DNA of 34,035 bases from a virus, in the IMG/VR virus record IMGVR_UViG_3300028025_001045, positions 1 through 34,035 of that record; one strand, given 5' to 3'. Positions 6,073 through 8,467 of the stretch are shown piece after piece (the first letter of the stretch is position 1; each line of letters begins with the position of its first letter). The position numbers were made by a program, and so were the translations under genes. Below the pieces are notes generated by a model. The model had not been told where the DNA came from and did no database searches. It worked only from the letters and a program-made list of their open reading frames with translations.

Positions 6073-6553
6073 TATTGGTGGGCACTAATTTTGGCAAATC
6101 TTTTAACCATAAACAAGTTCTTTTTTGCATTGGATGACCATATTCGTAAGGCTGAATTGTTTGCGAATATTGTGGCAAACCATATACCTTTGAAGGTATG
6201 GGATTTTCAATAGCTATCTTGGGTATGTTTGCGTTGTAAAGAGCCATAAAAAACTCTTTTGCAGCCAAACCTTTTATTAATCTTTCTTGGTTCAAAATAC
6301 CTTTTGGATATAAAAACCTAGCACCAGCATTAGATAAATAGGTGCAAGGTGGGTGGGCAATCATTAAATCCCAGCCATTATCAAGAATGTCTAGCACCGA
6401 ACCTTCGTAATGATTACCTTTGGTTTCAGTAGGCAATATGTCACAAGACCAAGCATCGTGGCCCAGTTGTGCAAAAGCATCTCTAACACGCCCCGAATAT
6501 TCACACGCAATTAGCACTTTCAATCTATTTCCATCCCCATTCGCATCATACAT
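5912..6553 (-). CDS. Minimal DNA cytosine methyltransferase-like protein
   Basis: 213 residues. ACEYSGRVRDAF at 16-27 is the AdoMet-binding motif I region, HPPC at 67-70 the PPC catalytic motif and ENP at 116-118 the motif VI-like signature, as in C5-cytosine methyltransferases. It is much shorter than typical enzymes (about 300-400 residues), with little room for a target recognition domain. It could methylate phage DNA against restriction, but target and activity are unknown. The ATG at 6553 overlaps the replication gene; a TTG at 6523 forming a TTGA overlap is an alternative start. Confidence 0.75.
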   Translation of the reverse strand: MYDANGDGNRLKVLIACEYSGRVRDAFAQLGHDAWSCDILPTETKGNHYEGSVLDILDNGWDLMIAHPPCTYLSNAGARFLYPKGILNQERLIKGLAAKEFFMALYNANIPKIAIENPIPSKVYGLPQYSQTIQPYEYGHPMQKRTCLWLKDLPKLVPTNIVEERQSTKVAGNWFNKGGKDRQKERARTFEGIATAMAEQWGASIPMCSTAVM

Positions 6554-6894
6554 TTCTTCTTTAAAGTATCGTAGCTATCGTACCCGTTACCCAGTATTCC
6601 TAGTTCACGAGCTTTGTTCTCAATACCTTGTTGGCTAAACATCCAAGACCTATCCACCTTTTCTTTGGCGGGGGTCATGTCTAAAACATCTTCCCATCGT
6701 GCAGCGTTTATCCACGATGCGGGGTACGGGATGTAGTCTATTTCGGTGCGTTTAAGTTGCCAATGTCTAAGGTGTTTAGGCAAGGCTTCTAAGGCTTCAC
6801 GCTTTTCAAGGTCAGTCAATCGTTTCCAAGCAATTTCAGCTTTTTTCTTTGCGACCTTTTTGGGCCAATTCATCCAAAACTTTTCAAAATCCAC
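6520..6894 (-). CDS. Replisome organizer / helicase loader-like protein
   Basis: 124 residues. It reads FEKFWMNWPKKVAKKKAEIAWKRL, then ALEALPKHLRHW and YIPYPASWINAARWED. This combination is the conserved C-terminal region of many phage replication initiation or helicase-loading proteins. Here it stands alone without an N-terminal winged-helix domain. The start is GTG at 6894, preceded by a G-run ribosome site (AGGGGG) as in the plus-strand early genes, which groups it with early expression. No polymerase or helicase gene is nearby, so host replication proteins are probably recruited. Confidence 0.8.
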   Translation of the reverse strand: MDFEKFWMNWPKKVAKKKAEIAWKRLTDLEKREALEALPKHLRHWQLKRTEIDYIPYPASWINAARWEDVLDMTPAKEKVDRSWMFSQQGIENKARELGILGNGYDSYDTLKKKCMMRMGMEID

Positions 6895-6902
6895 ACATCC
6901 CC

Positions 6903-7049
6903 CTATTTTGTTGCAAGTACATAAAGTCCAATATTACTAAAAGCATAACCGCTATATACAACTGCCATAGCTGTATTACCTTTAAAGCCTTGTTCTATAC
7001 CTATATAGGCATAAATAAGCCCCGTCACAATAATTAGCCAAGAACTCAA
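6903..7049 (-). CDS. Small membrane protein, 48 aa, TTG start
   Basis: This 48-residue protein begins with TTG at 7049 forming a TTGA overlap with the preceding gene's stop. It has one or two hydrophobic segments (SWLIIVTGLIYAYIGI and AVVYSGYAFSNIGLYVLA). The motif GLIYAYIGIEQGFKGN is one I recognise as recurring in very small membrane proteins of related phages, so the frame is likely real. It is too short for usual ORF limits. The role is unknown. Confidence 0.7.
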   Translation of the reverse strand: MSSWLIIVTGLIYAYIGIEQGFKGNTAMAVVYSGYAFSNIGLYVLATK

Positions 7050-7234
7050 AATGGTGCATCCTCAAATTTAGGTTTATCAGCTTTAACAAACTGGTAAGTC
7101 CAATCGGTATAGGTTTTTATTAAATGCTCGGCTTCATGCTTAGTCTTAACTGTACGCATTAATTCACCATGCTCATCATAGATTTTGTAATGGCTATAAG
7201 CGTTTATGCGGTCATCGGTAGTAAATGTAGTCAT
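7046..7234 (-). CDS. Small hypothetical protein, 62 aa
   Basis: MTTFTTDDRINAYSHYKIYDEHGELMRT, then FEDAPF at the C-terminus. Aromatic and charged, without membrane segments. It is first in the leftward early block after the candidate promoter at 7316-7345, and its stop is coupled to the next gene by a TTGA overlap. No family recognised with confidence, though the acidic C-terminus ending in APF recalls small phage early proteins. GGGTGA precedes the ATG. Confidence 0.65.
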   Translation of the reverse strand: MTTFTTDDRINAYSHYKIYDEHGELMRTVKTKHEAEHLIKTYTDWTYQFVKADKPKFEDAPF

Positions 7235-7257
7235 AAATCACCCGTAAAGACTGTAGG

Positions 7258-7271
7258 TTAAGTTTACTTAA
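7258..7271. promoter_or_regulatory. Perfect TTAAG-N4-CTTAA operator-like repeat
   Basis: Perfect inverted repeat TTAAG TTTA CTTAA. It shares its half-sites with the repeats at 8907, 8960 and 11021. It lies between the candidate leftward promoter and the start of the gene at 7234, where a bound protein could block transcription or translation. Binding of the repressor encoded at 8656-8907 is inferred, not shown. Confidence 0.5.
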
Positions 7272-7315
7272 TAATAAGGTATATAGGGATAAACCCTAGT
7301 GTTACTTAATGTCGG

Positions 7316-7345
7316 TATATATAATTTATATATAACTTTTTGCAA
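7316..7345 (-). promoter_or_regulatory. Candidate leftward sigma70-type promoter
   Basis: On the minus strand TTGCAA (7345-7340) and TATATA (7321-7316) are 18 bases apart, embedded in an AT-rich palindrome. It would transcribe the leftward block starting with the gene at 7234. The same palindrome also holds TATAAT on the plus strand at 7320-7325 without a clear -35 box, so the site might work in both directions. Confidence 0.45.
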
Positions 7346-7368
7346 GCTCTTTTCCCATAGAACGACCA

Positions 7369-7540
7369 ACGCCACAAGTGGCGATACTGTCAAGAGATGT
7401 ATCGAGTAACGACTCTACCCAAGCTGGCTTGACCCAATATCTTGGCGGCTATCGCAGGTGTCGACCCTCGCTCCGATGCTGAATCTCCATCGGCCTCTAG
7501 CCCATCCCCGACTTTTTCTAACACCCTGTCGTTTCGGGTG
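7369..7540. other. Hairpin-dense non-coding region (possible origin or structured RNA)
   Basis: At least seven consecutive short inverted repeats occur in 170 bases: CGCCAC/GTGGCG (7370-7383), CGATAC/GTATCG (7382-7404), GAGT/ACTC (7404-7415), CAAGC/GCTTG (7420-7431), CCAA/TTGG (7434-7445), CCGATG/CATCGG (7473-7493) and CACCC/GGGTG (7522-7540). The last two have 9-base loops. The region is more GC-rich than its surroundings. A minus-strand TTG-started frame of 80 residues crosses it but has no ribosome site. It may be a replication origin or part of an RNA; which is not clear. Confidence 0.45.
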
Positions 7541-7547
7541 GCAGAAA

Positions 7548-7679
7548 TAAAAAAACCCTTTTGGGTTGCTCTAAGTTGAACCCGCTTAATAAATGTGTCG
7601 AAATCATTTAGTAAACGCTCAGGGCAACCCAAAAGGGTCTTATGGCTTCGACATAACTACTAAACAGGGTTCAATCTGC
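7548..7679 (-). ncRNA. Candidate structured small RNA
   Basis: About 130 bases between a consensus-like minus-strand promoter and an intrinsic terminator, with no credible coding frame. Pairings visible on the minus strand: TTGAACCC (7674-7667) with GGGTTCAA (7583-7576), nested TGTCGAA (7653-7647) with TTCGACA (7602-7596), and a 15-bp pairing of 7638-7624 with 7569-7555. The last crosses the first two, so they form either a pseudoknot or a switch. The terminal 8-bp stem begins about five bases from the predicted transcript start. No known RNA class was recognised. Confidence 0.5.
7549..7569 (-). terminator. Intrinsic terminator on minus strand
   Basis: On the minus strand the hairpin AACCC-AAAA-GGGTT (7567-7554) leads directly into seven T (7555-7549). 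It ends transcripts from the PP-loop/repressor operon or from the candidate small RNA that begins near 7679. A 15-base inverted copy of the hairpin sequence lies at 7624-7638, so a much longer alternative stem can form. Confidence 0.65.
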
Positions 7680-7685
7680 TTGTAC

Positions 7686-7715
7686 AGTATAACAAACTAT
7701 TCGGTACATTCGCAA
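7686..7715 (-). promoter_or_regulatory. Promoter for the candidate small RNA
   Basis: On the minus strand TTGCGA (7715-7710) and TATACT (7691-7686) are 18 bases apart, near sigma70 consensus, predicting a start near 7679. The -35 box lies in the last codons of the PP-loop gene and the -10 box just beyond its stop. There is no gene start within 400 bases downstream, which points to an RNA product. Confidence 0.5.
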
Positions 7716-8467
7716 GGTGCATCAAATCCCACTAAAGGTAGCGTCAGTTGGGCTTCGTGCATCCGAATAACATCTGCCCATGCGTAGTTGCGACCAAGCC
7801 CTTTAATGCTAGTTAATTCAGCGTTTTGTTCAATCTTTAAGGCTCGTTGTAATAAATCAGGGTATTCTTTGTAAAGTTGCACAATTTCCTGTGGTTTTGA
7901 GCTTGGGCAATAAAAACAAGCAGATTTGGCTACATTCTTAATGCCTACAGATTCAATAACATCTAAGCATTTTTGCCTATCCCATTGCCATTCAATTAAT
8001 GGGTAAATGTAGTCGTATTTCTTATCCTCACGCTTGGCAGCGTTCTCAGCCCTATGTTCTTCGTTGGCATCATAACCTATGTATTTAACGCACTTTTGCC
8101 CGTTTTTCCATGTATTAATGGCTGGTTGCCAATTATTGCAAAACTTGTCTTGTGGGGCTATTTTGTGTTTTTGCGAGCATCTTTTATACCCATAAGCTAT
8201 AGATGGTAAAGCGTTAGCTCGTAAACATTCTTCTTCTAGTGTTTCGTATTCGCCTGATTCTGTAACCCTTTTAACCACAGTAATTCGTGGATAGCCTTGT
8301 TGCTCTAGCCAATCGCTAAAGGCTTCAATGTGTGCGTAGGTTGCGGGTCGTTCACCGCCAGTATCGGCAAACAAAATAAGGTCTATAGGGCGTTTTTCTT
8401 GAATAAGACCAATAACCATAGCTGTGCTATCAACACCGCCACCAAAAGCCACTATATGCGGAATCAT
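7697..8467 (-). CDS. PP-loop ATPase, PAPS reductase-like
   Basis: 256 residues. The N-terminal FGGGVDSTAM at 8-17 is the PP-loop that binds ATP in the adenine nucleotide alpha-hydrolase fold, and LILFADTGGERPATY follows as in PAPS reductase/DndC-type enzymes. A CFYCP motif near residues 182-186 provides a CxxC pair, and another cysteine (KRCSQKHK) is near 95. Phages often carry such genes. Roles could be sulfur transfer, assimilation or nucleotide modification; none can be chosen here. It is last in the repressor operon. Confidence 0.8.
   Translation of the reverse strand: MIPHIVAFGGGVDSTAMVIGLIQEKRPIDLILFADTGGERPATYAHIEAFSDWLEQQGYPRITVVKRVTESGEYETLEEECLRANALPSIAYGYKRCSQKHKIAPQDKFCNNWQPAINTWKNGQKCVKYIGYDANEEHRAENAAKREDKKYDYIYPLIEWQWDRQKCLDVIESVGIKNVAKSACFYCPSSKPQEIVQLYKEYPDLLQRALKIEQNAELTSIKGLGRNYAWADVIRMHEAQLTLPLVGFDAPCECTE

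Follow-up and report, generated by a model that had tools for sequence, protein, structure and literature searches.

Genomic setting and promoter of the element

The window analysed here, the whole 34,035-nucleotide stretch of IMG/VR virus record IMGVR_UViG_3300028025_001045 from a freshwater phage, carries a candidate RNA element on its minus strand, flanked on one side by a PAPS-reductase-like gene (7697-8467) and on the other by a short open reading frame (7046-7234), after which comes a replication-initiation-like gene (6520-6894). A gene for a Cro/YdaS-like helix-turn-helix protein lies in the region of the element in the window and in many relatives, with different upstream genes in other relatives. 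The PAPS-reductase-like gene stands directly before the RNA in the window, the place taken in many relatives by a Cro-like gene or by other genes, and this turnover of the upstream gene indicates that the neighbourhood of the RNA has been rearranged. In one relative (L005, 4702-4777) a tRNA-Thr gene with anticodon tgt sits directly behind a relative of the PAPS-reductase-like gene, at the place held by the RNA in the window.

An earlier sequence-only reading of this DNA had proposed a small pseudoknotted RNA transcribed from a minus-strand promoter, and that promoter is indeed present: a -35 hexamer TTGCGA (7710-7715, minus strand) is separated by 18 bases from a -10 hexamer TATACT (7686-7691, minus strand) with an extended -10 TG, as in promoters of the sigma-70 type. 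Among 77 relatives, the -35 match barely exceeds that in shuffled sequence (3.2 versus 2.5 of 6 positions), while at least five of six positions agree with TATAAT upstream of the first hairpin, P0, in 71 of the 77, and the box lies 6-8 nt before P0 in 72. This fixed distance places the predicted RNA start approximately at G7679, where P0 begins, in agreement with the start proposed earlier, five bases before an 8-bp stem.

Fold of the 5' domain

The predicted fold of the window element is far more stable than expected by chance (z = -5.95, with none of 200 shuffles equally good). It opens, where the RNA is predicted to begin, with P0 (7664-7679), a 4-bp hairpin of GCAG (7679-7676) with CUGU (7667-7664). 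Within the P0 loop lies the 5' strand of P1, UUGAACCC (7674-7667), whose last base, C7667, is common to P0; it pairs with GGGUUCAA (7583-7576), which directly abuts P2. P2 itself is formed by GACCCUUUUGGGUUGCCCUGAG (7639-7618) and CUUAGAGCAACCCAAAAGGGUU (7575-7554), and encloses the hairpin P3 (7584-7616; 7616-7605 with 7595-7584), which has 12 positions and one mismatch in the window. The P3 loop holds UUCGACA (7602-7596), the 3' strand of a 7-bp pseudoknot, PK, with UGUCGAA (7653-7647) in the linker as its 5' strand. Behind P2 comes a terminator-like U-run, UUUUUUUAUUUC (7544-7555), and overlapping its end is UCUGC (7541-7545), which can pair with the 5' GCAGA in an outer stem that is an alternative to P0. 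All of these strands are on the minus strand.

Both the 8-bp stem and the nested 7-bp stem described from the letters alone thus correspond to real pairings, P1 and PK. The 15-base inverted repeat reported at the same time, extendable to 18 with a wobble, also exists and proves to be longer, an inverted repeat of 22 positions with one mismatch that is followed by UUUUUUUAUUU. What that description overlooked was P3, the 5'-terminal P0 and a structured downstream module at about 7541-7355. The combination of features exceeds chance: a sequence-blind scan for the architecture, defined as a helix scoring at least 15 that ends at a U-run, together with a P1 of at least 6 that has its 3' strand located at that of P2, gave a single match in the 34-kb window with both strands scanned, and no match in 326 kb of shuffled sequence. 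A covariance model of the element also matches the plus strand at 7523-7656 (47.4 bits), and the element has a 71% self-match on that strand; we put both down to the self-complementarity of the P2 strands.

The nesting of these helices recalls the HDV-like self-cleaving ribozymes, which have the same helix order P1-P2-P3 and a P1 of about 7-8 bp, as here. P1b, however, abuts P2b, leaving no room for a P4 or for a J4/2 with the catalytic C, and the window element has instead a long P2 followed by a U-run; no Rfam ribozyme matched in the window. A place among these ribozymes is therefore a most improbable reading, and we rejected membership on the abutment of P1b and P2b.

Covariation and coding potential in 77 relatives

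The first relatives came from a protein search with a neighbouring gene and further ones from DNA patterns in IMG/VR, giving an alignment of 77 non-redundant copies in which 45 pairs (3449 cells) were tested. Standard pairs occupy 98.4% of the cells against 88.3% in shuffles, and both sides of the pair have changed at 20 pairs. Since the shuffles do not keep relatedness, we regard two other measures as the safer evidence: sliding the 3' strands by 1-3 columns lowers the paired cells to 34-54%, and the number of distinct strand pairs is high, with 23 for P1 and 48 for PK. Double changes occur at all seven tested pairs of P1, at five pairs of P2 (98.9% of cells paired), at seven pairs of P3 (97.1%) and at one pair only of P0 (99.7%). 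For PK, a mean of 6.74 of 7 pairs can form, as against 5.07 with swapped partners, both taken at the best linker offset. The G.U pairs of P2 point to the minus strand as the RNA strand, since they would be A.C on the opposite strand; one position is GU in all 77 sequences, and another is UG in 46 and CG in 31.

Judged by this comparison of relatives, the RNA element is real and its two pseudoknots covary. The covariation that the sequence-only reading had named as a check is strongly positive, and the pseudoknotted phage RNA that it placed behind a promoter is borne out in both fold and promoter. A conserved protein, which the sequence-only reading had named as a refutation, was not found: stops interrupt each of the six frames in 71 to 77 of the 77 sequences, and element lengths are spread over all three remainders of three. 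A protein-coding gene was accordingly rejected for lack of a conserved open frame.

The U-run and the sequence beyond it

The arrangement expected of an attenuator, a stable helix followed directly by a U-run, is found here and at most loci. Behind 215 long helices that had been collected without a rule on T, at least five of the next eight nucleotides are T in 88%, and the mean is 5.92 T in 8 nt against 2.51 expected. The U-run is followed by a short segment that is conserved (UUUCUGC in the window), which suggests that the RNA runs past the U-run at least sometimes. All five pairs of the outer stem GCAGA/UCUGC are possible in 73 of the 77 relatives, where shuffled tails would lead one to expect about 22. 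With a 5' strand that hardly varies, this is consistency more than covariation, save for three cases that deviate from the consensus on both strands as GCGGA/UCCGC. The outer stem of type III 5' domains, a type introduced below, shows changes on both sides when read by eye, and no outer stem was seen in the type II 5' domains. P0 and the outer stem are the only mutually exclusive pairings; P1, PK and P2 are compatible with one another.

Exchangeable 3' modules

Behind the U-run, the window and nearly all relatives with a contig long enough contain a non-coding 3' module, of which there are at least five different ones and, by one count, six classes behind the 5' domain of the window; no consistent open frame was found in any of them. 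The window has module A (7355-7541, minus strand, with an approximate 3' end), a structured non-coding RNA in which 76.6% of cells are paired across 12 variants as against 63.9% in shuffles, with double changes at 20 pairs and a pseudoknot helix paired in 98.6% of cells. Its helix 3 is poorly aligned (31.6% paired) and was excluded as support, and the single-sequence fold of module A is not significant (z = -0.14). Module B has covarying helices too. Among at least 137 unique copies of the type-I 5' domain, the type of the window, the classes of module behind it number 47, 35, 28, 13, 4, 3 and 1, six copies lying too near a contig end to be classed.

One of these classes, D, is the Rfam family Betaproteobacteria-1 (RF02932). 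In relatives, its model gives full-length matches (94.6-112.4 bits) that begin a short way after the type-I 5' domain, and it was matched in six loci (L006, L030, L057, L061, L132 and L138), all with the same 5' domain; behind other 5' domains the matches score 78-107 bits. The window, with its module A, has no RF02932 match at or above the gathering score of 49.4. Thus RF02932 has in common with the present family one 3' module behind the same 5' domain, and it differs in that its 120-position model covers part of that one module, without the 5' domain, the other classes or the modular architecture. One phage contig that carries RF02932 also has a Hammerhead type II match (L240, 4325-4382; 38.1 bits against a gathering score of 37).

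Searches of viral contigs from modules A, B and D returned at least 282 unique loci, in which the 5' half varies too. Under a first set of rules, the loci listed comprise at least 102 with a type-I 5' domain, at least 116 with another long helix and U-run, and at least 64 with neither; under a second, at least 114 are type I and at least 104 others, including about six recurring types. The types are set by simple pattern rules, and the split between type I and the rest is approximate. In the 116 non-type-I loci the mean helix score is 20, whereas shuffled controls reach at most 11. Among the 64 loci with neither, the module mostly stands directly behind a promoter, marked by a -10-like box, and a few loci scored as such (for example L236, L197 and L217) do have a helix and U-run upstream. 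Type I was seen with modules A, B and D among the 282 or more loci, and with further classes among the 137 or more copies; some other 5' types were seen with only one module.

The topology appears to persist across these loci, and the long helices outside type I mostly come with the same P1 pseudoknot. The collected loci, 3.6 Mb in all, contain at least 302 helix-plus-U-run elements near a module, at least 281 of them with a P1 of 6 or more, and in 245 of those 281 P1 directly abuts P2 (offset 0). Distinct sequences number 76 for the P1 strand pair and 69 for the P2 start. An initial, less refined comparison gave the P1 of the non-type-I set a mean of 7.03 against 5.26 in swapped controls; the PK of that set is weaker (4.77 against 3.41), the pseudoknot being clear mainly in types I and III.

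Two contigs each carry more than one copy. The two ends of G005, a single 35.7-kb contig, carry different 5' domains (L189, 512-638, and L191), one of them divergent (61.6 bits, no clear PK) and in front of module B, possibly through strain-level exchange at the locus or an assembly join. G009, of 44.4 kb, has two different copies about 35.2 kb apart (L146, 282-419, and L151, 8264-8401), for which tandem phages, terminal redundancy and an assembly chimera are alternative explanations.

These data bear directly on the form in which the RNA exists. The sequence-only reading had a free-standing small RNA of about 130 nt ending at the terminator, and the corresponding model treats the downstream module as a separate RNA or element. 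In its favour, a U-run behind a long helix is kept across unrelated types. Against it, the segment past the U-run is conserved together with the 5' domain, as is a 3' module in relatives; a promoter scan of the window found no better promoter between the U-run and module A; and most loci that lack a 5' domain have the same kinds of module immediately after a -10-like box. We therefore consider the free-standing RNA unlikely, and believe instead that the halves belong together, probably as a large and almost undescribed superfamily of phage RNAs built from two exchangeable parts, a pseudoknotted 5' terminator domain of one topology (P1 abutting P2, then a U-run) in differing sequences and varied 3' modules, with the halves swapped at a genomic locus. 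Such swapping would mean that phages evolve RNA cassettes there, much as they do protein morons or anti-defence genes.

Carriers

The carriers amount to hundreds of uncultured phage contigs. Capsid and portal proteins are related to those of Mx8-like phages with up to about 52% identity. No copy was detected by the architecture scan in three phages, cultured or named, whose capsid and portal proteins are related. Among cultured phages more generally the window element gave only near-random matches and a class-D relative none, and plasmids gave no match to the class-D relative. A search of the GTDB genome set with one type-I pattern returned one match, in a 3.5-kb MAG contig.

This distribution bears on a role in immunity or incompatibility, in the manner of the P4 CI RNA or a plasmid leader, in which a partner RNA would act on the leader and the fast-changing P1 and PK would set specificity. 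The strands of P1 and PK are certainly very diverse, and in the window a Cro-like gene precedes the element and a replication gene follows it, which would suit such a role. At the same time, the single GTDB match, the absence of any tyrosine integrase from 11 contigs with the element (several being fragments) and the lack of any plus-strand promoter near the element in the promoter scan all argue against it, and we hold an immunity RNA to be very unlikely.

A proposed conditional terminator in front of a structured RNA

Comparison of the loci establishes the conserved box, the fold with its pseudoknots, the lack of a reading frame, the interchangeable modules and the missing or replaced 5' domains. 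The anatomy of a terminator, set within a 5' domain that is pseudoknotted and flanked by the promoter and the structured RNA, leads us to infer leaky or conditional termination at P2 and the U-run, and we propose a leaky or conditional attenuator. In this model, the sigma-70-type promoter would start the RNA at about 7679, and P0 and P1 would form early, the P0 loop pairing as P1 with the strand just before the P2 3' arm. P2, the 22-position helix enclosing P3, would close once its 3' arm emerges, ending at the U-run, and the second pseudoknot would tie the P3 loop to the linker. The polymerase would then either stop at the U-run or read on into module A, to about 7355, giving a long product and a short one of about 130 nt. 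The choice between termination and read-through would depend on whether P1 forms and on the competing P0 and outer stems, and the optional 5' domain would in this way set the amount of 3' RNA made.

Overall, we give about even chances to the model that makes the window element the 5' domain of a modular non-coding phage RNA and P2 with its U-run an optional leaky or conditional attenuator. We do not see the either/or choice that marks a classical attenuator, since P1, PK and P2 can form together, and without some relief a strong terminator so close to the promoter would leave the 3' module unused. The 5' domain could equally have a role in stability, processing or assembly. The regulatory RNA or antiterminator suggested by the sequence-only reading survives as a phage RNA; nothing tested favours antitermination, and the anatomy resembles that of a conditional terminator.

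Among these other roles, a stabilising or processing domain would protect the RNA with its knotted 5' end, and RNase III would cut the roughly 22-bp P2 to free the 3' module, leaving the U-run secondary. P0 starts at about the predicted start site, and P2 has 20-28 positions in many types, a length that RNase III can use. Such a domain does not need a U-run, however, and yet one stands directly behind the helix in 88% of loci, so that we regard this explanation as improbable. Assembly would be at issue in an architectural RNA of the GOLLD or ROOL kind, in which the loop pairings might be intermolecular and build a multimer. Phages carry GOLLD and ROOL RNAs (PMC12286853), which share with the present family that they are large, pseudoknot-rich phage or prophage RNAs without known function, and covariation cannot separate intra- from intermolecular pairing. 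In GOLLD, moreover, one region is conserved and another less so (PMC12286853). Against this kinship, there is no Rfam match to GOLLD or ROOL and no tRNA gene in the window, the 5' domain of the element ends in a terminator-like helix, and its halves are exchanged; an architectural RNA thus appears quite unlikely.

The attenuator model itself has natural points of comparison. The phage P4 CI RNA, pT181-type plasmid leader attenuation and the HK022 put RNA all act as RNA leaders, controlling termination after a promoter. What they have in common with the element, in a comparison that beyond Rfam was made by description only, is a leader between the promoter and the control of termination; they differ in that no antisense partner was found for the element. 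A precedent for two forms from one promoter is the isrK phage RNA locus of prophage Gifsy-1, where short terminated and read-through forms have different roles (PMC4825925). The likeness, again drawn by description, lies in the short terminated and read-through forms proposed here; the long form of IsrK is an mRNA, whereas the downstream part of the element is a structured non-coding RNA module.

Novelty and implications

Searched against 4227 Rfam families, the 5' domain gave no match at gathering scores, and none at E-values up to 5 on 7100-7800, in keeping with the sequence-only statement that no known RNA class could be recognised. Nothing on the element was found in a search of open-access papers. 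One 3' module is partly known, and large phage RNAs without known function are an already known kind. What the sequence comparisons suggest to be new is the exchange of halves around one topology that appears to be kept across different sequences.

Should our interpretation hold, there are many uncultured freshwater phages with a modular non-coding RNA, its 5' half absent from Rfam and its 3' half partly known for one class. A knotted topology that survives near-complete sequence change would then give a rare example from nature of a structure more durable than its sequence, and swapped RNA halves at the locus would parallel, at the RNA level, the gene cassettes of phages. A pseudoknotted leaky terminator before a structured RNA is, moreover, a testable model, and a family whose promoter, boundaries and variable parts are defined would offer a new handle on the function of large phage RNAs such as GOLLD and ROOL.

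One further feature of the locus deserves mention. Upstream of the short minus-strand gene at 7046-7234 lies a palindrome, TTAAGTTTACTTAA (7258-7271), which looks like a putative operator, and TTAAGnnnnCTTAA-like sequences, similar to it, occur near promoter-like boxes behind the 3' modules in many relatives.
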